From positions 7,911,015-7,975,014 of the forward strand of contig NC_036461.1 of assembly GCF_002775205.1 (NCBI RefSeq): a stretch of DNA of 64,000 nt, in the 5' to 3' direction. Numbering within the stretch: position 1 is the stretch's first letter; the number at the start of each line of letters is the position of its first letter. Shown here one piece after another: positions 793-63,184 of the stretch. The notes beneath the pieces are model-generated. The model did not search any database. It was not told the DNA's origin and was given only the letters and a program-made list of their open reading frames with translations. Source of the stretch: Xiphophorus maculatus. Lineage: Eukaryota; Chordata; Actinopteri; Cyprinodontiformes; Poeciliidae. The translations under genes and the position numbers were made by a program.

Positions 793-1532
793 GCACTGTG
801 GTGAAGCACTTGGTTTGCAGTCACATGAGTCAAAATTCCTCCATAATGATATGAGGGACCTAATAAACTCAAACAGCAAATGACTACAACGAGTTATTCC
901 TTCTGAATTGCTATACATTTTGGCTTTTTCAAAAACATAGTATTGAGTAACATGTTGTGTCTTTTTGTAAGCTTGATACTCAATTTCAGAACCTGACAAA
1001 AATACAACCATTTTAATCTTATTATATGTAAAACCCTAGTGCTGAAGTAGAGTAAATTATTTTACCAAGATTATGTATTTTATAAAGAGCAGAATAAGCA
1101 GCTTAATGAATAAAACCATGTATGCAGGCTGACAACTGTTAAATGAGAAATCAAATCTAATTTAATCTGTTAGATGTGTGCGAGATGTTCCATCAGAATA
1201 TAACTAAAATGTGTTTGGCATATGCTCAAACACTTTAGATCTTAAATGCATCTGTTCTCGTCAAGGTTCTCAGTCTAATAGATGGTTGGTGTCCATGTGA
1301 TCCGATTCATCATCTGGCCACAAATCACCTGTACTTTCCTTTGAAAGTTTAAAAAGTGCATATAGCTGCCTGATTTTCCTTGCACAGTAATTTTCACCTT
1401 CAGTTCACAAGATTAATCAAGCACTCATTCTCCTTCTGGTGTGTTAGCCAAATGAGAGCTAAAACACCAGAGGAAAATTTGGGAATCTGTGGATATCTGT
1501 TGATGCTTTATGGTTATCGCTCTTCTTCACAG

Positions 1533-4500: not shown

Positions 4501-7500
4501 CAACTGACTGGAGGGGTACAAAAAGGTGTACCCACTGGATCGTGAAAGGGGTTTAGACTATTTGGAATCAAACTTAATTTGCAAACTTGAAGAAATTTAT
4601 TGTGACTGAGCAGGTCAGTGACATTTTGAATGCTTCCATCTTCTTTGCCCTAATGCTGTTTCCTGTGAATAACAACCACTCATAGACTATGTAAAGGAAG
4701 GATGCAGCCACTCTGATTTAAAATAAAGATCACAATCTTGATTTTATTCACTCTACCGTACATAATTTAAGTAGGTGACAGATACATCCCTTTTTGCATT
4801 AGGTATCCTAACTGAAGTATTTATATTTATGGGTTATTCTTGAAAATACTGTAGTAACAGTCAGAAGTCTTATTCATTTTAGGGCCCACCATAAACTAAA
4901 TCTGCTATTCACTCAGTGTCATAGCAGCCAAATATGCTTATGAACTTGTTTGCTCTTTAGAAAGGATTTAATAGGAAAGACCTTTTGCCACTTTATTAGA
5001 TCAAAAACAGCCCGCCCTTCCTTTCCAACTGATGAGATGTATAACAATTCATTTTTTGTCCTCTATAGATAATTTATTTTCTACTGCATTAATATGGAAC
5101 AACATTCCATAAAGTCAGTCTCTTTAATGGCTTATCTTACTTAAAGTAGACTAAGCCAGAAAGCATAAAAGCAAAATCTCACCCAAAGCAAATTTTGAAA
5201 AATTCCATAGTGGGTCGTGCCAAGAGACACTGATGGCCAAGGCCAAATGTAGAGATGAGTGTTGCGTTAGGGTGTGGTAAGGATGAACAAAAGCATTGTT
5301 GCCAAATTAACGACTGAGACTATGCAGTCTCCCAGTCAGGTAGATCAGAGAGGAGACTCATTCCACTCTGTGTCCACATTGCAAATGAATCAGATTTGTG
5401 CAAAGTTGAAAACGCTATTGCTCAATCTTTCATATTTCCAACTGCTGACTCACCATGGTATCGTGTGTCTGAATGAGATAAGTTTATACTCAAATCGGGG
5501 CTGTGACATAGACATCGACCAAGTTGCATCATTTGTAACCAATAGGAAAATTCAACTGCACTAGTCACCCTTTAACACAAACTGGACAGCACTAAAATGG
5601 TTTTAAGACAAATATTTCTGATCTAAACTAGTTGACAAAAAATTTGACAATTTTCACAGTAACAAGATCCTGTTCTGCAAGTTTTCATCAAAACAGATAA
5701 AATACCTTTTGCTCTCTTTGCTGAAACAAACTCCAGATTATCTATATAATCTGTGCCATCATTAGACCATAGTACAACAGGAGGGCTGAGACTGGTAAAC
5801 ACAAGACAAGTTTTCTTGAACGTCTCTTGTTCACAGCTGCATCTCATTATTTTTGATAGTAGCAAATTACATATTGAACTGACTCGGGTTGATATGAAAC
5901 TTCATTACAGTAGCCACCAACACTAATTGCTTTTATCGAACTTTAATTTAGACAATATTTTGGACAGTTATGTCAGATACTTTTCTATAAAATAGAAGTC
6001 AGATACTGCATCCATTTTTAGGCCAAAATGGATGCTGTGACTGATAACTACATAAATCATTGAGATTAGCTGTGTTTTAAGGTGCTGTGGCTACATCCAT
6101 CTTTTTTGCACAGTCTATGTGTGAGCTACGTTGAAAAATATCTGATGCTGTAGGAATGAGGCAGGCTTTTGTTTCATCTGCTTTGGGGTGTTCTGCAGAT
6201 GGTTATCCAAAAAACGAGATCACATATCGGTGGCAGAGGCGGGCAGTGGAGGTGGCCGACCAGCGTTACTGGAGACTCTACCAGTTTGCTTTTGTAGGGA
6301 TGAGGAATACCACCGATGAGGCACACACTCAGTCAGGTAAGGCAGAATCGCCTTACCGTTTCTAGTTTTGCAGTGCTCTAAATTGAAAAACCCCTTTCAT
6401 CTTTACTTTGCTTAATCTGTTTCAGGGGAATATGTCATAATGACAATATTTTTTGACTTGAGTCGACGGATGGGCTATTTCACTATTCAGACGTACATTC
6501 CCTGCAGCATGATAGTGGTCTTGTCCTGGGTGTCCTTCTGGATTAACAAGGATGCCGTCCCAGCTCGGACATCTCTAGGTTGGAAATCTTAACAAAATTT
6601 TACTATCTGAAAGTCTAGCATCCTGCCAGACTGAGGTCCTGCAAGTTTTCTTTCTTTATGAGCAAATAAGGCAAAATGACAAACCACAATCGATCGATCT
6701 TGTAGTTTTGGAATCAAAAACAATGACTTCTGCCTTTTCTGCAGTAAGTTGGAGGAAATTCTGACTCATCCACTCATTGAAATCATAGACACTATGTGAT
6801 TTTATTGAACTGTTATGTGGTTGAACAAAAAATTTAATCTGCATTACCAGGACAAGTTTGATAAGAGGCCCTGTGGTACTCCATACACTTAACAGAGAGG
6901 CACGTAGATATAGATAATCTGAAAGTAGAGCCTTGGGGAATCCCACATGTAATCTTTGCTTTGGTTATCAAGCTGACCTTAATCTTAACTGATAATGTTT
7001 TCCCAAGGATAAAAGATAAAAACAAAATTAGTTTCTTTTAATATAGCTACATGGTTGTCTTGGTAGGTCACCTGTTTTTTGGTACTGATATTGTTTGAAA
7101 AATAATTGGAATTGATAATGTCTTTGGAGATGATGAATGACCCCAACTTAAAAATTTTGCTCTCATGTTCATCTGTGACTAAAGATTTAAACGCAACAAC
7201 CGTTCAACTAATTGGAGGACATATGAATTAATGCACAACAGTCTGAGCGTATGAACAAAGGAAACCAGGGAGTATTTATACTGACACAGCTAAAGAGAAA
7301 CAAGCGACAGATGATTAGTAAATGAGGATCAGGTGAGATGGGAAAGCAGAAAGCAGGACTATCTAAATAGACTGGGGAAAAAGCAAAGAAATCTTCTAAT
7401 GCACCTAATCCAAGACGATTTTGTAGGAGTGTCCTAACAACCATTTCTTCTTAGTCCTAAACTTTGTTCATAATGCAGTTTGACAGAAAGTATGAAAAGT

Positions 7501-8472
7501 GTAGCATGATTTTAAAAACACTGTAGGAAAACACAACCAAAATCCTAAGACAAACTTTGAAAGACTCTAAGAGGATATCTTCAGAGATCACAAAAAGTCA
7601 GGATAAACTAAAACTACATGGTTTCATAATGTTTGTACCATATTTATTGTTTACCTTTTTTGAATCAAATCAGAGTCCCAGCACACAATGGCAAACTGAA
7701 TTTTTCAAATCAGAAAAAATTTATTTTTCAATCTGCCAATCACTAATCAGAGTGTTGATGGACAATTCCAATAAGCTGCTATTTTTTGTTGGGTTTCTAT
7801 GCTTTGCTCAATTATTCAGCAAATTTCCTGTTTTCATATTTCATTTTAAACAAAAAATTAACCATGTATATAATTTTTTTAATTCCTACATTTATCCCTT
7901 TGTAGGAATCACTACAGTCCTCACTATGACAACTCTGAGCACCATCTCCAGGAAGTCCCTGCCGAAGGTTTCCTACATCACTGCCATGGATCTCTTCGTC
8001 TCTGTCTGCTTCATCTTCACCTTCGCTGCTCTCATGGAGTATGGGACCTTGCACTACTTCACCAGCAACCGGCAGACCAAGAAGTCTAAAGCCAACAGCA
8101 GTGCCCAGGTACAAACTGAACTTTTATTTGACTCACTCTGGCTTTATTCTTCTAAACGGAGCAGTGAAAGTAACCATGTTTTTTTTGCAGCAGAGAGTTC
8201 CCAGCATGGTAAATATCCGACCTGGAACATCCCTGTTGCAGATGAACAACATCGTTCCATATCACGAGGACGATGACTACGCCTACGATTGCTTAGATGG
8301 AAAAGACTGTGCCAGCTTCTTTTGCTGCTTCGACGACTGCCGATCGGGAGCCTGGAGAGAAAACAGGATGCACGTTCGAGTTTCTAAGATTGATTCTTAC
8401 TCGCGGATATTTTTTCCGACTGCTTTTGGCCTTTTTAATCTAGTTTACTGGATTGCTTATCTTTATTTATAA
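1533..8472 (+). CDS. gabrg1: GABA-A receptor gamma-1 subunit, 5'-partial, eight exons
   Basis: Subunit of the pentameric GABA-gated chloride channel at inhibitory synapses. Coding exons: 1533-1693, 1899-1966, 2975-3195, 3434-3516, 6199-6336, 6426-6578, 7906-8108, 8191-8472; all have GT-AG borders, and the sizes 68, 221, 83, 138 and 153 are typical of GABA-A genes. They give about 435 residues. Seen in order: acidic N-terminus ([14 protein letters not shown]), ligand-binding domain, Cys-loop ([15 protein letters not shown]), M1 ([10 protein letters not shown]), pore-lining M2 ([12 protein letters not shown]), M3, a short M3-M4 loop with the gamma-type [14 protein letters not shown] cysteine cluster, then M4 ending [24 protein letters not shown] and [16 protein letters not shown] favour gamma-1 over gamma-2 or gamma-3. 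The signal-peptide exon is not in the window; the first codon here is split across the upstream intron. Family assignment is very secure, the paralogue secure. Confidence 0.95.
2468..2730 (+). repeat. Teleost SINE-like repeat, diverged
   Basis: The block begins with GTAAATGGTAAATGACC, then CTTGTATAACACTTTA, CAGTCATTCACCCA, AGCTACATTGTAGCC, and ends CCCAAGGACACA. This matches a common teleost interspersed repeat as I remember it, in gabrg1 intron 3. The family name is not certain without a repeat library. Confidence 0.6.
4225..4400 (-). mobile_element. LINE ORF 3'-end remnant (RTE-like)
   Basis: GAGGAGCAGAGGCTCCGCTC followed by a CTTCACCTTATCCCTAAG stretch resembles the reverse complement of the C-terminal coding part of an abundant fish LINE. 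The copy is strongly diverged and short, and lies in gabrg1 intron 5. A related piece in the other orientation is at 43306-43455. Confidence 0.45.
6600..7025 (-). mobile_element. LINE reverse-transcriptase fragment (L2/Rex type)
   Basis: On the minus strand, reading frames contain CGIPQGS (about 6950) and later [20 protein letters not shown] (about 6710-6770). These are the start of the palm motif and the stretch after the YADD box in fish L2/Rex-type non-LTR retrotransposons. Frames are shifted and both ends are missing, so this is a dead 5'-truncated copy. It sits in intron 7 of gabrg1, antisense to the gene. Confidence 0.75.
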
Positions 8473-31137: not shown

Positions 31138-34100
31138 TCACTGGTCCTTTATGCTGAGAACTGGATCCACCAGTCGATTGTGAACATGCATTAAACCTAC
31201 AGTAAAAAAAACACAAATATTAGATGCATAGTTCTGTAGCAGAGATGAAAAAATGTTACTGAATCTGGAAACATGGTTGACATGTTTCTTTACAGGATAA
31301 CTTTACAGGAAAACTGTAAACTTATTGACCAGCAAATGCTGTTTAAATCTCATTAAAAATGTATCCAAAAAATCTTTCACTTCTGCAATATTGTTAAAAT
31401 ATTAAATATTCTATTCTAGAGTGATATAGAAAAACTACCCCATTGCATTTGTTACATTAAGGCTGGTGTGTTGGGATTATTTGAAATCATAAAACTGAAT
31501 AATTTAAATCTAAAGCCTTTAGCTAATCTAAAACTGCAAAAACAGTTCTGATGAGAATTACAAGGAGAGATCAGATAATCTAATTTTAGCTTCTCTAAAC
31601 TCAAAATAAAGTCTGAAATGTTTCTTCTTGTATACAAAGCTCTCCAAGAACCCAGAAAAAATCCAATATAGAGACATCGTCCACCCCATTTACATAAACA
31701 GGATGTGCCAGTACCTTTGAAGTATTTCACAGTTTTGACACGTAGTTCCAGCGTGGCGTCCTCGTCGCACACAAAGATAGTGTGCGGGTGCTGCTGGAAG
31801 GCCGACACTGTCCACATGTGGTTCACCCCCTCTTCGATGGCCTTGTACAGAGCGAATGCTTTGTGAGCTCCTGTGATCAGAATCATTACCTGAAGGAGAA
31901 CAGGAGAATAAAACCCAATGAGGTGGAGGCAGGGCTTCCATGTCTGGGGGGAACAGGGTGGGCTGACCTCCTTGGCGTCCATTACGGTTCCCACTCCCAC
32001 TGTCAGAGCCATGGTAGGAACCTTGGAGAGGTCGTTGCCAAAGAAACGAGCGTTCGCCACGATGGTGTCCTTCGCCAGAGTTTTAACTCTGGTCCTGGAA
32101 ACGAGGCTGGAGCCGGGTTCGTTGAAGGCAATGTGGCCATCAGGGCCAATTCCTGTGAGGAGGGGATGAGAGATTCAAGACACCGCATGTCAACATGAAA
32201 ACTTTCAGAAACACATCAGGAAATGCACGAGACTAAGACATACCAAGTCACTAAACATCATCTAAGCACCACTCTTTGGTGTGGACATTGTTACTGAGTG
32301 AAGAATCAAAGTCAACCATTTTCAGATGTTTCAACTATGGCCAGCCAGTTAAATATCCTGGACTTGGAAATCTTGTTGAAATCCCTGCTAAGTATCCAAG
32401 TATCTAGATCTTTAAGGTTTATAGAAGAAGACTACTGTTTAGTTGCACTGGCAGCTAATATAATGTTTTAAGAACAGTTTTGAATGTTTAACTGAAGTCT
32501 TATCAGCTTTGTTTTGAAGCTGAAAAATCTTGTTTTTCAACAACTGCTGTCTTACAAAATGTGAGTATTCTCCTATGCTCCTAATTTACCTAACAAGAGA
32601 CTGTAAAAAATATTTTCATGATCCATTTTATTTTAAATTACAGCTTTTAGTAGATAAATTGTAATCAGTTAAAATCTGTATCAAAATGAACATTAGCTGC
32701 ACAACCATGAATAAAAAATCTTTAATTTTCACCTCCAACAAACAGCTCGATCCCTCCAGCCGCAGCGATCTTCTGTTCATAAGCATTGCACTCAGCCTCT
32801 AGGTTCTCTGCATTCCCATCCAGGATGTGAGCGTTGGCCGGATCGATGTCGATGTGCTTAAAGAAGTTGTTCCACATGTAGGAGTGGTAGCTCTCCGGAT
32901 GAACACGAGGCAGACCTGCAGGACGAAAACGTTTGTGTCAATAAGAGAAGACGACCAACAGTCTCCAGCTGGTGAACACTCGAGGAATACACGTTTGATT
33001 TCTTCCAGGAATTAACTTGTTATGGTCACATAAAAATCTGGCGTTTTTGCAAATAAATTTTAGAAATTAACAGGGTGTTAAGAAAATTTTGCAAGCATCA
33101 GGTAATTTTGCTTCAAACCGCCTGTATTTTGTTTTTTTCCCCACTAACTTTTGTGACTGAAATTTGATCTAATCGATTCAGCTGCACAGACGGCAGAATT
33201 CTTGTCTCTGTCAGCAGAGAAACGTCAGCCTGGGAGGAGGTGGAGAAAGATAAAAACAAAACCCTACAGAAAGGTTTTATTCAAACAACAGATTTAATCC
33301 AAGCAACAAAACAGACATGAGGGGGGAAAAATGAAAAATCAGAATGGCTGAAATAACTTCAATTTACATTTTTTGCCAACCACTTTTTACTAAAAGTTTA
33401 ATGATGTACATAATACAATTTGTTTAGAAGTTTCCATTTACAAATTGAGACTGAGATTTCTGCCCATTCTTCTCTGCAAAATACCCTCAAAGTAGTAAGA
33501 GAGTAAAGTAGGAAAGAGCCTCTGCAAGGGCGGTACAATGTCTCGCAAATGTATCATTGTTGCAAAATACTAAATATCAATGATGTAAAAAACTCCTTTA
33601 ACTGCAAAAAAAATTAGATAAGCATTTAAGTAGATTTCAGGTGCTCTTTGATATTATTATATGTGTTCCTTATTGAATAAGAAATTGTTTTAAAATGTTC
33701 TGGTTCATATATTAGGAAGCTACAACAAAGTTGTTTATTTTTTTGCTGAAAAAGCAAATCTTTCCAGATGCAACATGGTCAGTAAAAACCATGTTACTGA
33801 GATACAGTTATAGCATTTCTTGTTTCCTCCTAGAATCCCAAACCACCATTCTCTATTTAGATTCTACAGTATTTATGTGTCGGAGCTGTCGCCCACATCA
33901 TCATACATCACCGTTCTTTTTTTCCCCCAAAATCGTGCAGTATTACCGTGAACATCAATTTTCAGGTCATATCCTCTGAGCCCTGATAGTGTCATTCTAA
34001 CACATAAACATGCTTTAATTGAAACAGTTCTTTTATAGCGCACGCTGTATGTTTAGAGATATTGCCCTGTTGGAATGCAGATCTCCACCCAAGTCTCAAG

Positions 34101-34718
34101 TGTTTTTGCTTAAACCAATTTTCTTCTAGGACACTGCCTATTTTCCAACTGATGAACAAGCATCCCCACAGCATGATGTTGCCATAGGCATATATCACAA
34201 AAGGAGATGGTGTGTTTATGTGCAGTCCATGTTTTCTGGAGAGTTTAGGTTGAATCAAACACGACTATTTCATACAGGTGCAGGCTGTGCATTCCGTTAT
34301 TTTAGTGAACTAGAATAGCCATGTACAGAAAAAACAGCACATTTTCCTGTACTTCCAGCTCTACTGGTTGTGTTCCGACAGGCGCAGTAAATTGCACTCA
34401 CCTACGTACTCATCCATATTGAAGGTTTTCACATACTTAAAGGAAAGGTCTCCACTTCTGTGGAACTCTATTAACTTCTGGTAACAGCCGTACGGAGTGC
34501 TGCCTGAAACAAAGCCAGAATCATGGCGCATTAGAGCCAGTGAAATCACAAATAAGGCTACGGAGAGAAATACAGTAAAAGAGAGTCTGTTTACCTGTGG
34601 GTAAACCCAAAGTAAAGTATCTGTCTGCAGAAGGTTTGAACTCGACGATCCTGTTTCGGATGTATTTAGCTGCCCACTCACTGGCCAGTTCATAATCGTC
34701 CAGAATCACCAGCCTCAT
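31138..34718 (-). CDS. gnpda2: Glucosamine-6-phosphate deaminase 2
   Basis: Cytosolic enzyme converting glucosamine-6-phosphate to fructose-6-phosphate and ammonia, the catabolic exit of the hexosamine pathway. Coding exons on the minus strand: 34595-34718, 34402-34503, 32733-32915, 31968-32152, 31715-31889, 31138-31196. They join in frame to 275 residues (human GNPDA2 has 276). The protein starts [20 protein letters not shown] and carries TLGLPTGSTP (sugar-phosphate loop), FNMDEYVG (catalytic Asp/Glu region), [19 protein letters not shown] (active-site His loop) and [20 protein letters not shown], ending [16 protein letters not shown] rather than MKLIILE, and the short C-terminus, favour GNPDA2 over GNPDA1. 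An AATAAA directly follows the stop codon. Intron 2 carries a Tc1 relic. No key residue is missing. Confidence 0.96.
33436..34260 (-). mobile_element. Tc1/mariner relic in gnpda2 intron 2
   Basis: The minus strand encodes pieces of Tc1-type transposase: [20 protein letters not shown], then [11 protein letters not shown] and KHVYVLE, equal to the family's IMLWGCF, FQQDNDPKHTA and VLEWPSQSPD blocks. Another piece (TTTCTGCCCATTCTTCTCTG, about 33456-33475) matches the end of the transposase gene. The part between is replaced by unrelated AT-rich DNA. It is heavily diverged and inactive. Confidence 0.8.
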
Positions 34719-34931
34719 GCTGCTGATAAGAGCCCTCAGTGAACAAAGGGAATACACTTATATCACAACCATAAACAAGAACTGATATTGGAGCTAACGC
34801 TAGTATGTACGGAAACTCCTGCAGTTGTTCAACGTTAACTTATTCTCTGTTGTTAATTATTATTATTATGTCATTATTCTGCAGCTACTAGTTGTTTTCA
34901 ACACCAGAATAATAAAACAGAGCAGCGTTAC

Positions 34932-45213: not shown

Positions 45214-47641
45214 TTAGCTTGTTTCCATCTTCTCCTTTGGGGGAACATTGTCTGGCCCATAATGTGCCTTCGAGGTGGATGGGACATCAATGTTGGGGTC
45301 ACCATTGTTGGCTGTGTTTATTTGGTTGCTCTTGCCGAGGCTCTTTATGATGCTCAGGTTGGTGCGGGCCGTTTCCATGAAGCTGTTTTCCAGCAGCCAA
45401 CCATCAGATTCAGAGTCAGGGTCTCCCTGCCTCAGCATGTTTTCCAGGGAGGTCTGGAGGTAACGAACACCTGTCAGCACTGACAGCTAAAACAAAACAG
45501 AAATACAATTAGTGACAAAAATGGAATACAGATAAAGTTTGGATATGGTATGCTTTAATTATTTCTAGAAGAAGCTAAGATTGTCTAAATATAAAGATTT
45601 CTCTAAAACAACTGTGGGTACAGGGAAAGTATATTTACTCCATGTTGAACTTTTGTTTGTTTGTTTGTTTTTTACATTTTGTCACATTACAGTCCCAAAG
45701 AGTTTATTTTTTTGTATCTGTATCAATCTGTATCTGTTTTCTACAGGAACAGAGGTAATGAGATTTGTAATCAGGCATTAATTTAAAAAGAGCCAGTTAG
45801 AGGCTACAAAAGCCATGAGACTAGGGCATATGGAAACACTTTCAAAGCACATTCAAAAGTGTTCCTGTCAGCCTGTTATATTTAGGACACAAATCTATTA
45901 CTCAGTATAAGTGGCAAATTTTGAAAAGTGTTCAGATGCTCTTCATGCAGACTAAAAGAGCTGAAGAAATTTTGCAAAGAAGAATGGGCAACATTTCAGT
46001 ATTTAGATGTGCAGACAAATTCAAAAAGACTTCTATGTTGAGTAATGGCAGCAAAATCTGGTTCTACAAACAACTATGCACAACTTTCATTTGCCTGTTT
46101 CATAAAATCCCAATAAAATGCTTAATGTTTGGTTTTGATATGTGACAAGTTCAAGAGGGACAAATATATTTTCAAGGTAAGGTAGCTATATAGTGTTTCC
46201 TTGCCTCAAAGAGCCAGGTAATGAGGACTGTAAGGCCAATGGACTGCATAATGTGGGTGTAGTACTCCAGCAGTGCCTGTCGGCAGCCCTTCATCCACAA
46301 GTTTTGGTCCTCGGTCTGATGCTCATAGTTGAAATGGGCCGAGTTGTTGGTAATCTGCTGCTGGATGCAGGGCCGAGGTGAGTCGATATTGCAGCAGCTG
46401 AATGGGACTCCATCCATCAGGTACTTCCCCTCTACATTACTTCTCAGTCGACTTGAGAGCAGGAAAGGGATAAAGTTCAGTTTTTATTGGTCAATTTGGT
46501 GCATTTTTCTCTGATTGTTTATGCAGCCAAAAAAGCCATGCAAACTAACCTGAACTTGTGTGAACAAAAAAGCCTCCTTGTTTAATTATGAATAAACTGT
46601 GATTAAGACAGTTGGGGTGCTACGACAGGTCGAAGGGCTCAAACACACATGTTTAATAAAGAGCTGGTTTTGGAAAAAGAATAAAACAGGTGGTGAGGAA
46701 AGAGTATCAATGTAAGAAATAGTCTCAACTTTTGCCTTACTAAACAGATACTATGCCTAAGAGCCAGATTTTTGTCAGGAAACAAACCATGAGCTCTCAA
46801 TTCTTCCAGAAAAAGGGTTTAAATATTAATCTAGAAAATATTTAGTCTGAATTCATATGTAGTTTAGAGAACACTAGAATTAAATGCAACTGTTAAAAAT
46901 GAAGTTGTTTCTTCTATCAATCTTCAACTATTGAAAAAAGAATGGCATGGTTCAACTGTAAAATGTCAACATTAATCTGTCATTTATTCTGAAGAACAGC
47001 TCTGTATTGCTGTCTTTTTTGTCAAGTTTTTAAAATGTTGCAACGACATACTTTACTTACTCTATGACTTCCTTTTTGGACATGTCCAGGTAACGGTTGC
47101 TTATCCACTGAATTTGAAACCAGTCTTTGTAGCCGCTGTTCCCACAGCATTGGAACTGTATCTGCAGTGTGTCCACAGTGTGTTTCAGGAAGCAGCGTCC
47201 TGGCATGTCTGTGTCTTTATAGAACCTCATAGCCTGCATCAGGCCCAGGTTCAGAGCCTCCTCCAGCTCCCAGTGCATGCTGTAACACATCAGAGCCCCC
47301 ACAAGCACGCACAGGGTGAAAAAGAAGGTGCACACAATGTAGGGCAGCATGATCAGCTTCCAGCGCAAGAACTTGGTGGAGTCCACACAGTCATAGCAGA
47401 TCTTCCCACCCAGGAAATTGATTATACAAGCAATGAGGCCTACAGCTATCAACATGTTGGGAACATACTGGATGTCCTTCTCTGCCATCAGCTCTTCACG
47501 CTTTTTGAGCTCCACCTTGAGGAAGAGCCCCAGGCTGAACAGGATGACCCCTGTAACCACTGAGATCCAGTTGAGGATCCACAGGATCTGGGCCAACTTA
47601 TCCCTCCTGGTCTTAGTAAACTTTACCTTTAAAACTGCCAT
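45214..47641 (-). CDS. prph2l: Peripherin-2/RDS-like photoreceptor tetraspanin
   Basis: Tetraspanin that shapes the rims of photoreceptor outer-segment discs. Exons on the minus strand: 47061-47641 (581 nt), 46205-46451 (247 nt), 45214-45486 (273 nt), 366 residues. I remember 581 and 247 nt as the sizes of human PRPH2 exons 1 and 2. Seen: [20 protein letters not shown] before membrane segment 1, KICYDCVD in the short loop, [53 protein letters not shown] (the conserved cysteines) and a glycosylation site in QITNNSAH. The last helix is followed by [11 protein letters not shown] and DGWLLENSF, and a tail longer than in human PRPH2 (346 residues). Several substitutions relative to PRPH2 and ROM1 suggest the prph2-like paralogue; that choice is tentative. 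Intron 2 starts with GC. Confidence 0.9.
45672..46161 (+). mobile_element. Tc1/mariner relic in peripherin intron 2
   Basis: ACATTTTGTCACATTACAGT near 45674 matches the 5' terminal region. From about 45950, AGAGCTGAAGAAATTTTGCA, AAAATCCCAATAAAATGCTT and GTGACAAGTTCAAGAGGGAC match the end of the transposase gene and the 3' terminal repeat of a common fish Tc1-like element. Most of the transposase is missing. The relic ends about 45 bp from the exon 2 splice donor. Confidence 0.75.
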
Positions 47642-50025
47642 TGTTTCTATATTTAGTAGTTATTCCTTAAAGGTGAAGGTGGGATTAATTGTGGGATGTA
47701 AGTAGATCTTGGAAAAGGAACAGTTTATCCTCCAGAGGGGGCAGCGGACTGAGGGGAGGGGGTTTGGTTGTAGGTTCTCTGTCGGTCCTTTCATAAGCAG
47801 CTTACTCCAGTCGTCGTAATTGATATAGTGTAGACGCTGCATTATGGTCATACTGAAGAAGGCTATAGTAAAAAACATATAGATTATCAAATAAGTATAC
47901 TGTCTCAGAAAGGAAAATAGTGATCAATAAGCAGAATGACAATTGACAAGGTTTTTATAAGCATGGATTATCAACATAACAACCATAACTATGATAAACA
48001 TAAGACATAAACATAAGATCAGTATCTCTTAATTCTATTAAATGTGTAAAAACAAATCATTCCCATTATGCTTACTTAAATATTATGCAAAAACTCTTAT
48101 TTAGGAAATATTTTAAAAATATTTAAAAAGATCTACAGCTATGCTCACCTTCATGTTCTCTGCTTTTGTCAGTAACACTTGATGTCATCCTCATGTTTGC
48201 CTATTTTCTCCATGATGTCCTCATTCTTTGTTGAGGGAGCCGAGTGGTCATACTGACACAGGTATCACAAGGCAGCTACGGGAGCATCTGAATGAGACCG
48301 GCAACCAACACCTGACCCTCCACATAATCTCCTTTTAATCATTAATCGGCCCTGGGCCCCTCTAGGGATTTGCACCCACCTTCTGCCACCTATGCAAATC
48401 TGACAGTCTCAGTTCTGTGAAAGTAATAACAAGTAGCGGGTAAGCATGTAGATTAAAATTCAAGAACAGATTGAACACTTGTCTTTCTGTTTCCAAGACA
48501 TACTTTGTGCTAAATAATAAGCATGTTGTATTTACTCATTCCTAATATTCTTATGAAGGTGAAAAGTGTGGTTGAGAGTTTCAGTTAGACATAGTTAAGC
48601 GTTAAAGCACTGAATGTTGAATATTTCCAAAAAGACACAGTAAAATACACCAAATGTCATCTAAATGTAATTGAATATTTGAATATTTAATTAATTCATA
48701 TTAATTTAAAGAAATTATATATCAATATACTGTGTCTACTGTATGTTGCCCTGTGGCGCACCAGTGACTCTCCATGGTGTACCTCAGCAATCACTTGATG
48801 ATTGCTGGAGAAAGGCAATCCTTGATGGGTCCTCCACGACTTTACAAGAATAAGCGACGGATGGATGGACAGACAGATGGATAGACAGATCAATCTGCTA
48901 ACCTGAAGATTTGCCTTCAGAAGTCCTCTACTTTAAATAGTAAACAGTCTCAAACATGGCGAAGGGACTTACACAAAACTAAACTAAAATTCCTAGAACT
49001 GTACATAATCCTGCACTCAATCTTATGTGATGGATGATAGTGACAGCAGTATTCTGTGGGGATGCATTTCTTCAGCTATGAAGAAGTGCCACTAAACTGC
49101 ATGGAAGTTTTTGGGTAAAATATGACAAATGTGAAAAAGTCAAAAGAATATCAATGCATTTTTATGGTACTGTGGGTAAGTATTTTTTATATTCTGCTTG
49201 TAAATTAATGACATATTCTAGAAGGAAGTTAACAGAGTACTTTGAATGGCTGTGCGACTATTTGGTGCTTTGAGATTTTGAGAAATAGTACACAGAGGCA
49301 AACACAAAGTCAAACAGGAATACTTCCTTCCCTTTATAATTATTGGATTCTTCGTTTGCAGTACTCCTGACTGCTAGTCCGGAGATGGCGCGACTCAGCC
49401 AATGAAATGTTAACAGAGAGAGATTAGTGGATTAACATCTAAGAAAGTAGCTTGGGTGAAGGAAAACATTGCTGCAGCCACTGCGGTTGTTTGAAAATCC
49501 ACATGACACAACTTAGAGCACTCACTGCTCTGCTCAGACCGAGGAAATTCCATCAACATTCAGTAGACAAATAACCTCCTCTATTGCTGAGTAAGTACTG
49601 AATATATAACATTTTTAGATTTCAGAACAATTCTCACAACCTCCATGCTTTAATCTGCTCTTGAACAAGCCATTGATCTAATTATGTTTAAGATAGTCTA
49701 AGAACATTACATGTTATAGGTTTGTAACACCTGAAGGACTTGTGCCTGAATTGTATTATAAATCTCCTTCTACTTTCTCGGTCTTTGAGGATTGTATATG
49801 ACCATTGTTTAACCTTAAATTTTGTAATAAATACACTCAGATAGTGGTGAAGAGATGGCAGAACTCTGAAAAATTGTTGTTTTAAACTCCGACAAAATTG
49901 ACAGGCCTGTATAGTAAGGTCACCGATTATTATGGCCATCAAAATGTCTGACCAGTGTCAGTTTGGCTATTTCAGGGTTAATTTTGCCTGTAAATCACCA
50001 TGTGAAATTCCTTATCCTGCTGTAG
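47642..50025. promoter_or_regulatory. Shared upstream region of peripherin and ELYS-like genes
   Basis: On the peripherin (minus) strand TAATCC occurs at 47682-47687, about 40 bp before its start codon. Three TAATC words (TAATCT, TTAATC, TTAATC) cluster at 48325-48347. TAATCC/T is the binding core of CRX/OTX factors that drive photoreceptor genes. A LINE/SINE tail lies at 48748-48880. Near 49380-49585 a possible non-coding first exon of the ELYS-like gene ends in a GTAAGT donor. No other gene is seen. Confidence 0.5.
48748..48880 (+). mobile_element. LINE/SINE 3' tail with ATGG repeats
   Basis: CCCTGTGGCGCACCAGTGAC, a GGTGTACCTC stretch, then AATAAGCGACGGATGGATGG. It is the same family of fish L2-type 3' ends as at 14092-14224, but more diverged. 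Only the tail remains. Confidence 0.65.
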
Positions 50026-50050
50026 AACCCAAGATCTGACATTTAAGATC

Positions 50051-53000
50051 ATGTTGGAGGGTCAATGGTCTGAAGCTTTGCGTGCTAACAAAATCAGAAC
50101 TATCTTTCACTGGCTGAAGAACCTGAATATTAAAGGTACATAAAAAATAGAAGAAACCTCTGATCTCTATATACTTCGTGAAATATTTTATGGTAGAAGG
50201 TGTGTTGTTTCATTAAACTTTACAAAGGTGATGCATGTTTGGAGGAACATCTACAAACCTTCGGCTCCTGGCTACAGAGGACATCAGAATTCACAAAAAA
50301 GGAATTGTTAACCTTGTGTAAGTATTTTGTATTTGGCAATTTATATGTGATTTTCAATGGTAGATATGTTGAAAGACATGGCTTTCAATATATCAAGATA
50401 CTTATTGACAAATGTGAGACAGTCGTCTGTGTGCTGCTGCCCACTATTTTCTCCCAATCTCTTTCTTTACTGTTAAATAATAAACACTAACCTTAACTAA
50501 GGGAAATAAGGCAGACAGTGTTTCAGGTTTTGATGAGTTCTAATGTGCTCTCATGGATAAGTTGATTATTTTGCTTGGCCCAACAGCTTTTGGAAGCTTC
50601 ACAACTGTTCCATGTTTATAACCCTTTCCAAACAAATTAATGTCTATTGTTTCTCTTATTTGGGCAAGATGTTTTTCTTATTTTGTGGATTGGAAAGGTA
50701 AAAAAAAAATCTGCTCTCTTCCTCCAAATTAATGAGTAAAAAGCACTTTAAATTGAATATTTTGTGTTAAACCTATTTTATTTATTTCAAGTTATGTAAC
50801 TGGGCACTGCCACTTTATCAAATGTCAGTTCTGAAAAAAAAATCCCACAAATCCAAAACATTCATAGTTTCTTTTTTCACCCAATAGGTTTCAGTCGTTG
50901 TCAGGGTGTGTGGATGTTCCTGGATCGGAGCTCCTTCACTGAAGTACACATCTTGCTCCAGAGGCTACAGAACCTCCTCATCTTGGTTCAGTGGTTGAGA
51001 AAACAACAAGGTCCATTCAGCAACAAGACGGATCAGCTTGACATATTCTAATCATTCCAGCACTAATGTAATCTTTTTTGACTAATTTCCAATTAGGTTT
51101 GAAGGCTCCATGTATGATCTGCAGGGACGCACAGCACTCATCGAATGGCAGACATGCCTGTTGGAACCAAGAGCTCTGCACTCTGAAACAACACATTTGG
51201 CTGGGTCGGCTGGTTCAGTGGTGGGGCATTATGGGGCTTCTGCCCAGGTTACCTGGTACTGATGTATTTGTAAATGGATGAATTGACATGATAGAAAGCA
51301 ATCACATCGCTAAAGACTTTTGTGTTCCCTGTTGTTGCTGTCAGAAGCCCAAGAACTGAAACGTATCTCTCAGATGTGGAAGGAAATGGAACTCAGCCAT
51401 CAGGAAATGTGTCTTAAAACTGTTGGGTAACACCACTGCTCTTTTCCTGTAGAGATTACAAATATTCTAATTCTACTAATATCCTTAAATTTATCCTTAA
51501 ATTTTGGTATCCTTTCTTTTTTCCCCTATTTGAATTTAGGTGGAATAAGAGAGAGATGGAAAGATGTGGCTTTTTGATCAAGGGCATGGTGATGCAGCTG
51601 TCCAAAAGACATGGGTGTATATGGACTTCTGAAGACTGCACAGATCAATGCTACCCTCCACCTTCTCTTCACTCACTTCTGAAGCTTGTCTTGGTTCCTT
51701 GTATTGACAACATGTTGGTCCAGGGTATTGTATCCAGTCAGCAATATGTCTAAGAACTCATTACATGGCATTTAAATGTACATTCCTTTGCAAAACTTTA
51801 ACATTTTCACATTTTGTCATGCTACAACCTCAAATCTCAAAGCATTTTGATTAGATTAGATTTAATAAACTAGTGGAATCCAATCCTGGAGTTTAGACCT
51901 AAAATATTACAGCTTATAGGTCAAGGGTTTGAAATTCCAGTCCTCGGACAGTCATATCTTGGTTTGCAGATGTGCCATTATTTCAGATTAGCATGGCCTT
52001 TATGATGCTGTTGGTTCATTGATGTTCCCTAATAAACCTCTACTGACTTCACAGAAACAGCGGGATATGTGGAAAAACAATTAGTTATTATGATGGACTA
52101 CTTTGTATTGGTCTATCATTTAAAATCAAAATGAAATACATCGAAGTTTGTGGTTGTAGCTTGGCATAATGTTGCAAATAATTAGTGCAGTCACCATGGA
52201 TTATGGTCCTTAATAAACTCATCCCAGCTATTATACTTCATCCTGGATGTGGCTAACTTCCTACAGTGCAAAGACAACCTTCTGCAGTCTTTTTGCCATG
52301 CTTTCACAATCCCTCACAGATTTTCCCATCAAATCAAAGCCTTCTGGATGTTTGATCATGGGCGCACAAAGGTACTCATTCAAGAACAATGAATTTGTTA
52401 AAATAGAAACAAATAAAGATGCATTTCTCTTTGGGTTCTATCATTTATATTTAAAAATAACTTGATTTGCTAAATAAAGCCCAATAAACTTTGTTCCTAG
52501 GCCTCCATGGAGCTCTTGTTGAGTCCCAAAGCTGCTGTCCCTCAATTCTCCTGGCAACATCGATGCATTATCATCTCTCTGCTGAAAAGCAAGCAGCACC
52601 ACATGGCACTGAAGTATCTCCAGTGGACAAAACCTCTCATAGAAACCATAGAGGATGCAAAACTTTGTGCAGAAGTGTTTCTTCTAAGCAGGTGCTCTCT
52701 TAGCTTCTTTACCAACTGAGTAATGTCTTGAATTATTGCTTGGCTGTTTAGTCATTCTGTTTCTCCACCTACACAGTTGTCTGTCTGATGCTTGGGCTTT
52801 GTTGAAAAGAAGCCACACAGAAAATGAGGATATGGTCATGTACTTCCTCCAGGCCTGTAAAGGTGTGAATCTACATGTTGAAGCTGTAAAATACATTTGC
52901 CATGGATGCCACGTGGGTTAATCTACATTAACTCATAAATACTACTTTACTTCACACTGCTAAGGCACACTGCTAAAGCAGCTTTTCTAACTCTTGATCA

Positions 53001-56000
53001 GGGTGAAGAAGACTGCAGCAAAGTTGAAGTATGTATCTTGCAGCAGAAGAATAAAGGTAAAAAGACATTTAAAAAATGCATCAGATGTCGAAAAAGGTGA
53101 ATTGCATGTAAGTCTTGTTTTCTTCAGATTGTTTTAGTGAAATGATACCCAGCCCACTGTCTGCTACACTGTATCAGAATCAGGCGGAGAGAACGTCTTC
53201 AGAGGAACTGGTCAAACTGGTCATGAAGGCTGTGACAGAAGTGAGAAAACCAAATCCCAGCATAAGGTACTGGGGCTTCTAAATTATCGTAAACCACACA
53301 TCAGTGACACGGGAGCATGTCAATAACTAATGTAATAATAAACTCGGGGAAGCTAGGAGAAAAAAACAACAAACGGTGACAGAAACAGATGGATCTGACT
53401 CCAAAATTAAGAATTATTTGTGATGGGGTTGAGTACTACAACATTAGGTGAGGAAACATTTGCACAAATCCTCTGTTGAAATGAAAAGCGGAGAACTTGG
53501 AGACATAAAAGAGAGCATTGCAAATCTAAGAACACAAAACCTCCTTCCAGACATAGTGGTAGTAACATTGTCAAAAGGTTTCAGTGGTGCACTGCATTAA
53601 GAGGATGGGATAATGAAAATAACAAAACTCAATTTACTCAATTTAGGCTGCATCTAGTATAACGTCCATGTCCATCATGAGTTTATGTAATTTCTGATCA
53701 GCACTAAAGCTTTGTGTTCCTTATTACAGTGAGGTTGTGTGGCCAAAGAAACCAAAGAGAAAATCAAACAGCAGAGAAATATTTCTGTCAGTGCAGGCTA
53801 TGCGCCGCCTCACTCCAAGCCCATTCTCAATGGAAGCTGTGAAAGAAACCGAACAAACAGCAAATACAGAGGATGGCCAAGGGGAACACTGTGCTCTCCA
53901 TTCTGTATGTAGTTTAAGTCCCCATAGTTTTTTTTTTAATGCATATGTATTTTCAAGTGGAACAGTCACAGATCTTTGTGTCTCTGTTACAGAATCAATC
54001 TGAAACACCGGATATTCTGACTTCTGAGAATCAAAGGTCTTTGTCTGCTCTTTCTTTCTCCTCTGCCTCATCAGCACCTCTGTTGAAACATCCTCACTTC
54101 TTTGACAGCACCATAACTTTGCAGAGGATTTCAGCTTTTCTCACTGATCAGGAGATCCAAACTAAAGAAGATGATGAAGACGATGAGGACAATTTCACCT
54201 CAGTGGATGATTCTTTGCCACAATGCTGGGAGCCAAAACTGTCACCAGATGGCGCCACAGAACAACTTTCCCTCTGTGACTTAGATAAAAGTTTAAAGTC
54301 CCAAGATAAAGTAACAGCTTATGTTTTGCAAGGTGGAGAAAATGACAGGAAGTACACACCAGGAGAGCAAGTTGCTGATGATTCTCCCAAAATGGCCACT
54401 TCAGGCTCCCACAAAAGGGAAGACCAGTCAGATGGTTTTCTGGTGATATCAGCAGACCAGGTGGGCACAACTCACAAATATGAAACTGCATATGTTCTGT
54501 TGTCTGTCTTTTACTGCACATTTTATGATCAGAAAGGGGATGAGCACCACCAGCAAAAGGAAGCTCTGGGATGTGGCATTCAAGACTTCTCCAGTACACC
54601 ATCAACAACCCTCCAAGATCCAGTGACTGACCTGAACCAAAGGTTGGTTTCAGAGGACAACACTGGCCCACCAACAATTGGTAAGCAGGACATCTCAGGT
54701 TGTAGCTCCGAGCCACCCTACAGCATCATATCACTTCTACTCTCTTGACTACTGAGAATTCCTCTGAATTTAAGTGTCTCTGGAAAATAAAGCATTTTTT
54801 AGATTGCTATACTTTTTTCTAACAACACCAAGTAGTCTGATTGTATTTCCCCTTTTCAAGTTTCATCCACACTGCCAGATGAACTGTTTTTGCCCTCTTC
54901 TCTTTAATCAACAATTCCAATTGTTTCATAGTCCTGGGTGAAAAAAGTATTTCCACCAGAAAGTCTGTACCCATCTACCTCCACTTTATCATACACAGGT
55001 TCTCAAGTAGCCAAAGGGCTCATTCCATCACTGTTCTGTTCTACCATTATATTTCTTCTCAAAAGATTTTTTTGTCCAATGAAATCAAAATTGGTTATAA
55101 TTTATCTGTTTCATGCTTTCAAGATTTAAGGTCTTCTAGCTTGAACACATATTTAACTGTGAAATCATATATTGCAGGAAAATAAATTACTTTGAGGGAA
55201 TGCTAATTAGTTCTTTTGAGAGATGACTGAATCACAGAGAAATTGTTGTGCTGCTCAAGGGTTAGAAATACAGGTAGCAGCACCAAAAGGATGGGGACTG
55301 GGGAGAGATTGGTTTCCTTAACCTTGCTGCGGCAGCCATTCATCCATAAAACACCCCCTATTTCTCCACTGCATTTCCCCCACCCCATATTCTATGCATG
55401 TGTGTGTGTGTGTGTATGGGGGAGTACCTTACAGCTCTGCAGATGCACCTCTTTTGATCACAGCTGGGCTTGTTGTCCCTCACTCATGCACATCTTTATA
55501 GCTAAGTCAAAGCTCAAAGACATGAGACTGGTTAAAAATTATGAGAATTTTCTTTTTTTACCCAATGGTTCATCTTATGTGATGGTTTCTTTTAAAAGGA
55601 ACTTTTATGCTCACACAATGCTGGCATAAAAGCAATATCTTCAACATTTACCTTTCCCAATTCATAGTTTTCCTTCTACTTGCTCACAGATAACACCACG
55701 TCTTCCTGTCTGCTTGGCCCCTCATTCACCAACAGACTGGCCAACGTCACTGATTTCTCTGCAAAGCAAACAGATGACAAACAGGTACTTTATTTTTTTC
55801 AGATCTTCATATACAGAGACGTTGTCATCAACGATGCGAAACATTATCCGACCTTTAGGGGGCACTATTGTTCTAGTTAGCTACTTGGTGTTGCTGGGAT
55901 GAGCTCATTTTTAGGCCCTTGGGATTTCTCCTCATCACAGCCCAGCAGGTGTCCTCTTTACTCCCCTTCATCCGTTGTTCTTCTGTCCTCCAGCATAAAC

Positions 56001-57837
56001 ATTACTGCTTTTAAAATCTCCCCCCACAATGATGTCATTTTTCAAACAGAAGTGCAGGTCACATTGTTGCTTTTGTACATTTGTTAAAAAATAGATGTGT
56101 CCTGCCCAGTCTGACTAGTTTCATATGGATTTTGTGCTTTTTCTTTGACCTAGAGGACTAAAGGACTCACTGGTGGTTTAAGATGTGTGGACCTCAATTT
56201 TTATGCTGATTGGGTAATGAATTATTAGGGATGTTGTATTATTATGAGACCAGAAGTATGTCCACACAAAGCTGTAGTTCATTAAACTGTATGGTTAATA
56301 AAAAATAACTACAGATTATTAACCTAACTGTGGTGCCCTGCAAAATATGTTGAAATTTACATTTTGTCATCGAAGAACTTCATTATATCTTTTCAGTATT
56401 TTGTTTGCAAGTAATGCATAATATTTAAGCTGAAGTAAAACAATACACAGTAAAACAATACACACACAATACACAATACACTGCAAATTAAAATTCTGAA
56501 ACATGTGGTGAGGATTTATACTTAGCCACCTAACACACACACACACACACACACCTACACACGCATGAAAACAGCAGATCAGGCAATCAGCCTAAAGATG
56601 AAACAGAGCCCTGAGAGTCGAAATTGAATTGGTAACACTCACAGAACAGCAAACCATCTCTGGAATACATTCAAAAAGCAATTGGTAAGCATACATTTGA
56701 GACAATACAATTAGAAAAATAACGGTTCTACTCCAGTTCCTTACTCAAACCCTGTTTTACTGCTTGTAAATTGTGAATCCAGAATGATTCTCTTTGTAAC
56801 AAGTCTGTGTCTGTCATGCCTTCTTTTAGAAACAGACGTTTAATTTTCTTGACATTTAAAGATGACCAGCTGTGTTAAAGTGTCTAGCCACAGGGAATTT
56901 CACATCTTTATCCCAAATATTACTTTCGTGTTCAGAAATGTCTGACTTTTGTTCAGTTTCACCAATCTATCCAGAGCCGCACAGGCATTTCTGTGAATAA
57001 GCTATATTATATTAATATGGTATTTGCAACTCTTCTGGAGTTCCCACAGGCATCTTGACTGATCCTCTGATTATTTCCTTTTCCAACTGTTAGTATAGAT
57101 TGACATCTATGTCTTCATAAGCTTGTAGTGCTAATGATGGATTGAACTGACTTAAAAGACATGTTTGAACTTAACTCTGCTTTAACTTCTCCACAATGTT
57201 GTCCTTAACCTGTCTGCTGGATTCCTTGGGCTTACTAATGTTATCTAACAAACCTCTAAGGCCTAGACAAAACAGCTGTATTTATACTGAGATTAATGAA
57301 CATGCAAGTGGACTGCACTGATTAGATGACCTTTACAAAAGATTTGTTGCAATGGATTTTATGTAAGCTAATTTTGAAACTAAACTTTCTTTTGGTTTGG
57401 AAAACCCAAAAGAAGGATATTTAAATTAGTAAATGTAGAAGTGCAAAATAAAAATTTAAAAATCTGGATTGAAACTGCACTGCTTGCTTAAAGAAACATG
57501 CAGCAATGTAGTCCTGGCCACTGCTACAAGTTAAAATATTCAAGGTTTAAGGTGAGATGAATGGTCTCTATTAGGGGCATTTAATCAGTGGTTGGCCCAG
57601 TGCATCCTTTCTACTGCACCCCTCAAGGGGAAAGATTAATGGGTACAGGATATTTCATTAAGCCCTTCACATCACTGCTCAGGATATGAGGCTGTAATTG
57701 TGTCTGTTTTTCATTCTTGCTTTCTGTTACAGGCAGAAGGAAAGGAGCTTGCAGGTTGGAAAGGGAAGGCTCCACAACAAAGAGTCATGAGTGGAAGAAC
57801 ACAATCCAGAAAAGGCAAACGAGTGAAGAGAACATGA
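50051..57837 (+). CDS. Short ELYS-like (AHCTF1-related) protein
   Basis: Exons: 50051-50135, 50228-50317, 50888-51010, 51097-51255, 51345-51426, 51540-51729, 52228-52371, 52501-52691, 52777-52912, 53002-53056, 53128-53266, 53730-53904, 53993-54460, 54533-54680, 55690-55784, 57733-57837; in frame, about 794 residues. Residues of about 225-400 match the alpha-helical ELYS domain: YPPPSLHSLLKLVL, then LLYFILDVANF, KAFWMFDHG, FSWQHRCIIISLLKSKQHHM and CLSDAWALLKRSH. ELYS (AHCTF1) is about 2,270 residues in human and seeds nuclear pore assembly on chromatin. Here the beta-propeller and most of the long C-terminal tail are missing; an acidic stretch (EDDEDDEDN) and a basic end (GRTQSRKGKRVKRT) remain. 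Upstream exons could exist but none were found. Several donors are weak (GTCCAT, GTATCC, GTGCTC). A nucleoporin-related role is inference only. Confidence 0.8.
51779..52175. mobile_element. Tc1-derived element with long inverted ends
   Basis: CATTTTCACATTTTGTCATG at about 51805 matches the 5' end, and TTGGTCTATCATTTAAAATC plus GTTTGTGGTTGTAG (52110-52160) the 3' end, of a common fish Tc1-like element. No transposase frame lies between. A scrap resembling a hAT-like repeat (ATTCCAGTCCTCGG, 51936-51949) is nested inside. The element fills most of the 498-bp intron between ELYS-like exons 6 and 7. Confidence 0.65.
54242..54255 (+). promoter_or_regulatory. CTCF-like motif inside an ELYS-like exon
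   Basis: TCACCAGATGGCGC fits 13 of 14 positions of CCASYAGRKGGCRS. It lies in coding sequence, so the match may be chance. Confidence 0.35.
54461..54532 (+). other. 72-nt intron, open in frame
   Basis: Between exons 53993-54460 and 54533-54680 lie 72 nt with a GTGGGC donor, a pyrimidine-rich run (TTCTGTTGTCTGTCTTTTAC) and a CAG acceptor. The stretch is 24 codons without a stop, so retention would keep the frame. Its translation is hydrophobic, unlike the polar flanks, which favours intron. Confidence 0.6.
55397..55416. repeat. (TG)n microsatellite
   Basis: About ten TG units in the intron between exons 54533-54680 and 55690-55784 of the ELYS-like gene. Confidence 0.9.
55852..55865 (+). promoter_or_regulatory. 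CTCF-like motif
   Basis: CCTTTAGGGGGCAC fits 12 of 14 positions of the CTCF core. It is intronic in the ELYS-like gene. Motif match only. Confidence 0.35.
56533..56554. repeat. (CA)n microsatellite
   Basis: About eleven CA units in the last intron of the ELYS-like gene. Confidence 0.9.
56560..57000 (-). mobile_element. Penelope-like retroelement fragment
   Basis: Minus-strand frames contain KFPVARHFNTAGHL and LLQRESFWIHNLQAV, which resemble the C-terminal endonuclease-side region of fish Penelope-like elements. It is a short, broken fossil in the last intron of the ELYS-like gene, antisense to it. The reverse-transcriptase part was not found. Confidence 0.6.
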
Positions 57838-58910
57838 TGAAAATAATGCATGAAAAAAAGAGTTTTTTGAAGACATGAATCTCGTTTATATATCATGAAC
57901 TCACACTCTGTAACACTGACCGATCAACTAAACATTGGACATACCAGCAACATGCAGTACATATTTTCTTGAATGTTTCTCAGAACTATATCTGAAAGTG
58001 TCACAAACATTATTATATATATATATATATATATTTTCACCATTGTCTGTTCAATATTAAAATGAAACATGCTGTTCCAGATAATAACACAAATACACCA
58101 CATTAAAAATCCACTGATGTTATCTTTGGAAGTGATTCCACTCTTTACATTCTTTGCTGGCTTCCCCCATGAATGGAAAAAAAATGTGATGTTTGCTTTG
58201 CAACCATAGTATCTCATGAAAAATGGATGACCTCCCAATGCTTTCTTCAGCCCATTCCCCTCTATATTTACCCAGAGTCCAGGGAATGCATTTGGGTTAG
58301 CATCCCTCCCCTTATCCCTCTCTTGTTCGGGTGAGTGAATAACTTAACACATATTTCAGGTTGACACACTTCTCCTGCGGATCTCCCCTGGGCGCCCAGT
58401 TCACGAGCCCACACGTTGTATTATTTAAAAATGGGCTTTGGAATTCTGCTCATGTAATTTCCTCTTCGGGCTTTTTTTAAATTTAAGACTTTGCCCTTGC
58501 AGTTGTTGTAGCACTTCTGATACCAGAGGTTGTCCAAGGTCTAATCAGGTAGGACATCAGCTCGACTACATTTAGTTAATTTTGTGTTGATTTAATTTAT
58601 TTATATTTATTTTTTGTGTCGATTTAATTAATTTTTTAAAAAGGATGAATCCTTCTCTTTCTAAATTAGCGATACTATTGCATAATTAAAAAGTCAAAAC
58701 AGATTTATGCATATTTCCCAGGATTTAGATTTTTTGTTACAAAAATGTCACTATATCAATTTAAGATGATATGAACAATCAATGGGGATTGCTTTCCAGT
58801 TGAATGAAATTTAATATTAGTAAATTAATAAGCAGCCATCCAGGTTAATTGGAGTAAACAGGAAAGACAATCAGAGGTTCAGATGTTGGAATGACTCCTC
58901 TAAGGACCGT

Positions 58911-60926: not shown

Positions 60927-63184
<2,258 letters not shown>

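Follow-up and report, generated by a model that had tools for sequence, protein, structure and literature searches.

ELYS of metazoans has been described as always combining a propeller, a set of helices forming a solenoid, and an AT-hook (PMC4920428), and docking of the human and worm proteins is reported to need both the propeller and the helical domain (PMC4920428). In the nuclear ring of Xenopus, the ELYS propeller stacks onto the Nup160 propeller and the last ELYS helices reach the Y hub; ELYS engages Nup160 through eight helices and three loops, and touches Nup37 with one loop (PMC8976044). A C-terminal RRK stretch of ELYS is described as binding the nucleosome acidic patch (PMC6499780). 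Shorter relatives also exist. Fungal Ely5 consists of helices only, equal to ELYS helices 13–30, which make the main solenoid contacts to Nup160 (PMC9233733), an ELYS-a-only class has been recognised across species (PMC6371224), and plant HOS1 is an ELYS homologue with a reported Nup160 interaction that has been placed in models of the plant Y complex (PMC12626886). Propeller-less ELYS proteins are already known outside animals. We take HOS1 to be without a propeller as well, and Ely5 to be the sole ELYS of its species. Here we describe an ELYS-like gene in a 64,000-nucleotide stretch of the Xiphophorus maculatus genome (contig NC_036461.1, positions 7,911,015 to 7,975,014; hereafter the window), whose predicted product carries the helical ELYS domain and in which we found no propeller.

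The gene model and its ELYS domain

We assembled a gene model from splice signals and reading frame, independently of an initial annotation of this DNA that had proposed about 16 exons and about 794 residues. On the + strand at 50051-57837, our model joins 17 coding exons into 2430 nucleotides encoding 809 amino acids with no internal stop, and 16 of the 16 introns are GT-AG. The earlier coordinates and open frame stood, whereas the exact size did not; the nearest of our models is a 790-residue, 16-exon variant that omits the 50-nucleotide exon 7. Three spots in the model are uncertain: where exon 3 ends and exon 4 begins, the acceptor of exon 5, and exon 7. The five alternative models that we built (808, 798, 790, 789 and 779 residues) are all open. 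Exon 7 is the weakest exon, as it falls at an insertion relative to ELYS in the alignment, and dropping it leaves 16 coding exons. The features of the locus are as follows.

49386-49403, + strand: promoter-like pair of an E2F-type site and a CCAAT box, spotted by eye as a consensus match
49386-49393, - strand: E2F-type site TCGCGCCA
49399-49403: CCAAT box, 5 bases on from TCGCGCCA
49410-49590, + strand: probable non-coding first exon (start assumed), inferred from splice signals and ending at a GTAAGT donor
50026-50135, + strand: exon 1, with the ATG at 50051 and coding sequence 50051-50135; with the leader exon in use, the acceptor precedes 50026
50228-50317, + strand: exon 2, with exons 1 and 3 gap-free against human ELYS 545-635
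50888-51010, + strand: exon 3, weak donor; an alternative end at 50985 with exon 4 from 51105 stays in frame
51097-51255, + strand: exon 4
51345-51426, + strand: exon 5, start at 51348 also possible
51540-51724, + strand: exon 6, where the PF13934 match begins; tblastn identity 36.6% over 41 residues
52055-52104, + strand: exon 7, doubtful, 50 nucleotides; with exon 6 ending at 51717 it can be left out without a shift of frame
52228-52371, + strand: exon 8, ELYS domain; PF13934 on this exon alone E 8.7e-6, 26.2 bits (cut-off 28.8)
52501-52691, + strand: exon 9, ELYS domain; PF13934 on this exon alone E 7.7e-5, 23.1 bits, under the cut-off
52777-52912, + strand: exon 10, ELYS domain
53002-53056, + strand: exon 11, where the ELYS domain ends
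53128-53266, + strand: exon 12, where the tail begins
53730-53904, + strand: exon 13, tail, with a basic patch resembling a nuclear localisation signal (NLS)
53993-54460, + strand: exon 14, acidic tail
54533-54680, + strand: exon 15, tail
55690-55784, + strand: exon 16, tail
57733-57837, + strand: exon 17, stop codon and basic C-terminus, followed downstream by ATTAAA at 58056

A single Pfam family was found in the 809-residue model, ELYS (PF13934), covering residues 207-436 with 84.1 bits against a gathering cut-off of 28.8 (E 1.7e-23), the profile search that the initial annotation had proposed as a check on its domain assignment. When we searched 177,635 distinct PDB sequences, three matches had E up to 1, and the top two were Xenopus and human ELYS: Xenopus ELYS 582-925 (7vci_T) matched model residues 41-408 (E 6.6e-23) and human ELYS 666-927 (7r5j_T0) matched residues 135-408 (E 6.3e-21), followed by a third match at E 0.76. 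A two-row profile recovers the same two ELYS sequences, although one row of that profile came from the Xenopus match itself, and the result is therefore not independent. Nearer the N-terminus, model residues 2-92 and human ELYS 545-635 form a gap-free alignment that scores 46.0, where shuffles average 28.8 and 5 of 500 equal that score. With human ELYS 1-1139 as a query against the whole window, tblastn returned two matches with E <0.01, both in the helical domain, and the next had E 2.1. The solenoid of the ELYS-like protein is collinear with human ELYS 545 to about 927, and the predicted protein retains most of the helical solenoid, not demonstrably all of it. Exon 14 lies within a stop-free stretch of 276 codons, compared with 249 for the longest one starting outside 50-57.9 kb. 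RNA family searches gave 0 matches at the gathering score, no tRNAs were found, and the repeats in 47600-58000 are short only, none bearing on the ELYS-like gene. Judged by its sequence, the locus looks like an intact ELYS-family gene that codes for protein.

The propeller, the 5' end and the tail

The ATG at 50051 is separated by 2.4 kb from the ATG (47641) of a divergent prph2-like gene, and we searched this interval for upstream propeller exons. We scanned the + strand of 47642-50140 as 63 stop-to-stop fragments of at least 15 residues (1733 residues in total); none matched any Pfam family, the propeller family ELYS-bb (PF16687) included, with an E of 10 or less, and ELYS-bb also had no match in the 809-residue model. 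Neither this fragment scan nor the whole-window tblastn search turned up propeller exons upstream. In a positive control, the human propeller matched ELYS-bb with 1027 bits, and a 93-residue piece of it matched at E 2.8e-50. A second control used the ELYS-like gene itself, and PF13934 was recovered from three of three pieces (exons 4-6 at E 0.068, and exons 8 and 9 each alone), all under the cut-off. Since single diverged helical pieces were detected, a propeller as diverged as the helical domain here would probably, not certainly, have shown in the scan. The ELYS-bb profile ends at human ELYS 489 and the homology starts at human 545, which places the ATG about 55 residues beyond the propeller. 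The picture given in the initial annotation, of an ELYS helical domain without propeller and with a short tail, is borne out by the PF13934 match (E 1.7e-23), the PDB matches, the alignment and the lack of ELYS-bb upstream.

The sequence upstream of the ATG is consistent with a start at this position. A probable leader exon is marked out by the donor GTAAGT that follows 49590 and by an acceptor of good appearance preceding 50026; once it is spliced to 50026, a TAG at 49514 stands in frame upstream of ATG 50051. The leader contains one upstream ATG, at 49503, which is out of frame, and the base at -3 of ATG 50051 is A. This probable leader exon, with its in-frame stop, supports ATG 50051 as the start. 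Pairs of E2F-type sites and CCAAT boxes mark cell-cycle promoters, and the pair found here gives no more than a hint of expression tied to the cell cycle: TCGCGCCA occurs once in the window and 12 of 100 shuffles also contain one, and the pair was picked after being seen, so that its zero expectation is no fair test. A bacterial promoter scan of 49200-50100 gave results near chance, with a model that is wrong for this organism.

Beyond the solenoid, the predicted protein continues into an acidic tail of ~370 residues (434-809) with a basic tip. Its net charge is -27 over residues 521-760, and the last 20 residues hold 8 basic and 0 acidic ones (net +8). The tail (434-809) had no Pfam match, and the 809-residue model contains neither the GRP or RGR core of an AT-hook nor an RRK stretch; it is possible that the basic C-terminal tip substitutes for the latter. 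We also considered an FFAT motif for VAPB, and dismissed as weak the one partial match, HFFDSTI at residue 573, which is without an acidic flank.

Set beside ELYS/AHCTF1/MEL-28, the predicted protein shares a helical ELYS domain collinear with human 545 to about 927 and a basic extreme C-terminus, and differs in that no propeller, AT-hook core or RRK was found and identity is 25-27%; it is also far shorter, at ~800 residues versus 2266 in human and 2408 in Xenopus ELYS. With fungal Ely5 and ELYS of C. thermophilum (ELYS-a only) it shares a helical ELYS domain without propeller (PMC6371224, PMC9233733), a likeness of architecture, not of descent. Ely5, described as about 300 residues long (PMC4920428), differs in being without the extra N-terminal solenoid and ~370-residue tail found here, and the host lineage here normally has full-length ELYS. 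With plant HOS1 the protein shares ELYS homology; it differs in that the model has ELYS as its sole Pfam match.

Divergence from AHCTF1 and the neighbouring genes

We next compared the model with vertebrate ELYS over the span of Xenopus ELYS 582-925. The model is 25.2% identical to human ELYS (85/337) and 27.3% to Xenopus ELYS (92/337), whereas human and Xenopus ELYS are 60.5% identical to each other (208/344). The PF13934 part is conserved somewhat better than the whole span, with 27.9% identity to human (55/197) and 32.3% to Xenopus (60/186). In contrast, the adjoining tmem179 is 68.9% identical (151/219) to human TMEM179. The ordinary ahctf1 of a fish should lie closer to the human-Xenopus level, and identity of 25-27% therefore makes it unlikely that this is one. 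The ELYS-like gene is likely a diverged paralogue of AHCTF1, as the initial annotation had proposed; the support for that proposal is indirect, coming from these identities and from zebrafish ahctf1 being a named gene (PMC9897728). Among the open-access PMC matches listed, there was no report of a vertebrate ELYS paralogue, and a literature search on synteny found 0 papers; automatic database annotations may already say ELYS-like.

That the gene is instead this fish's ordinary and sole ahctf1, evolving fast and cut short or with its propeller exons overlooked, seems improbable to us. Single diverged exons can be hard to detect, as the score of the exons 4-6 piece (E 0.068) illustrates, but the identity lies far under the human-Xenopus level, the ~2.4 kb to the prph2-like gene is without an ELYS-bb match, and the probable leader exon carries an in-frame stop. 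The named zebrafish gene (PMC9897728) and the account of metazoan ELYS as invariably equipped with propeller, helices and AT-hook (PMC4920428) also speak against it. We infer that a separate full-length ahctf1 is present in this genome.

Both the extent of the divergence and a single synteny hint suggest an old duplicate rather than a lineage-specific copy, a fast-evolving younger copy being possible. Tentatively, and on balance against expectation, the gene might be 'AHCTF2', the second copy of AHCTF1 from whole-genome duplication in vertebrates (2R), which fish would have retained and mammals lost. The sole hint of a 2R origin is that the gene here adjoins tmem179, and that in human TMEM179 is placed at 14q32.33 beside KIF26A and AHCTF1 at 1q44 near KIF26B. 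The remaining neighbours add nothing to this hint.

The window has a guanine-cytosine (GC) content of 37%, and its neighbouring genes, named in part after the initial annotation, are typical of a vertebrate. Head-to-head with the ELYS-like gene, with 2.4 kb between start codons, is a prph2-like tetraspanin gene on the - strand (Pfam E 1.5e-23), with an exon at 47060-47641 and likely further exons near 46175-46483 and 45217-45486; its exon 1 is 53.6% identical (103/192) to human PRPH2. This photoreceptor-type gene stands next to a peropsin-like gene (40.7-42.7 kb; 7tm_1 E 1.4e-32), in which a partial repeat of a peropsin exon was suspected near 41.8 kb and was not confirmed by a repeat search. 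On the other side, at 61116-63181 (+), is a tmem179 orthologue or duplicate whose exons were joined by eye and which had no meaningful Pfam match; we take its name from the identity to human TMEM179. Fragments of a gnpda-like (glucosamine-6-phosphate deaminase) gene lie at 31452-34757 (-), with a hand-joined piece scoring 18.5 bits, under the Pfam cut-off of 27, so that its exon joins are provisional. Exons of a 5-HT3-like ligand-gated channel lie at 1510-8472 (+), where a hand-joined part matched Neur_chan_LBD at E 1.6e-30 and a further piece, at around 8 kb, matched nothing in Pfam. Between the channel and gnpda, about 22 kb (8.6-31 kb) is without an evident gene; stop-to-stop fragments of at least 55 residues were listed there, with no family-library search.

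Possible roles of the ELYS-like protein

We hold, at about even confidence, that the gene encodes an AHCTF1 paralogue that starts past the propeller, keeps most of the solenoid, is without the AT-hook, and modulates or competes with ELYS on the Y complex. By likeness to Ely5 and HOS1, the solenoid would still bind Nup160 and Nup37 of the Y complex. Without propeller and AT-hook, the protein would not be expected to seed new pores; it may instead take up or buffer the place of ELYS on the Y complex, either modulating ELYS or competing with it, possibly in germ cells or in cells that divide. The initial annotation had named the propeller as the part that docks ELYS to the pore. The published work qualifies this: the human and worm proteins need the helical domain too (PMC4920428), and Ely5 is helical only (PMC9233733).

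Several observations weigh against a modulator or competitor acting on the Y complex, or against the model on which it is built. Human ELYS 179-2275, without residues 1-178, is reported to lose its envelope signal in HeLa cells, and C. elegans MEL-28 508-1784 and 681-929 (propeller-less, and the Ely5-like part only) miss the nuclear envelope (PMC4920428); a vertebrate form without the propeller may therefore fail to bind pores at all. The tail at 437-809 is unlike human ELYS 940-1139, the sole part compared (392 of 500 shuffles score equally high), and tail exons 12-17 are without a homologue, so that the exon joins there rest on frame and splice signals. Finally, a codon-usage score ranks the true frame top of three in just 8 of 17 exons.

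The envelope results also bear on a different reading, in which the paralogue has left the nuclear pore and uses its diverged solenoid and acidic tail for a different function, possibly confined to certain tissues, such as that of a nuclear adaptor or a transcription cofactor. This is possible, at well below even confidence. The 25-27% identity to ELYS, the absence of propeller-less ELYS fragments from the envelope in HeLa cells and worms (PMC4920428), and an acidic tail that is unlike ELYS and carries NLS-like patches are all consistent with it, yet the PF13934 part, the counterpart of Ely5, is somewhat better conserved than the whole span, and no sequence feature indicates another partner. 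For an AHCTF1 paralogue acting at the Y complex, the missing AT-hook and RRK stretch, the charged tail and the fragments that miss pores would together favour a soluble modulator of the Y complex or ELYS over a pore-seeding factor.

The poor separation of frames by the codon score would also fit a recently silenced or decaying copy, with its frame open and the gene out of use. In frame, exon 7 scores -0.31 bits/codon, the sole clearly negative value, exon 8 scores -0.02, and the other 15 are positive; we rejected the score as proof of coding because it is too weak, and base the case for a coding gene on homology, the open frame and the splice sites. A decaying copy nonetheless appears quite improbable. 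Exon 7 and some donors are weak, but the 17 exons are free of frameshifts and stops despite deep divergence, GC content is uneven by codon position (0.50/0.39/0.47) and differs between exons (45%) and introns (36%), and promoter-like sequence lies upstream.

A vertebrate gene keeping mainly the solenoid would be a natural separation-of-function form of ELYS. Such a form would test the Y-complex-binding part alone, and whether pores differ within one animal. As fragments in cultured cells and worms miss the envelope, a long-lived natural propeller-less form would be informative either way. If the gene were the 2R copy, fish would have two versions of the Y complex in the nuclear ring, the first with ELYS anchored to chromatin and membrane and the second with a propeller-less form, and hence tissue-specific pores.

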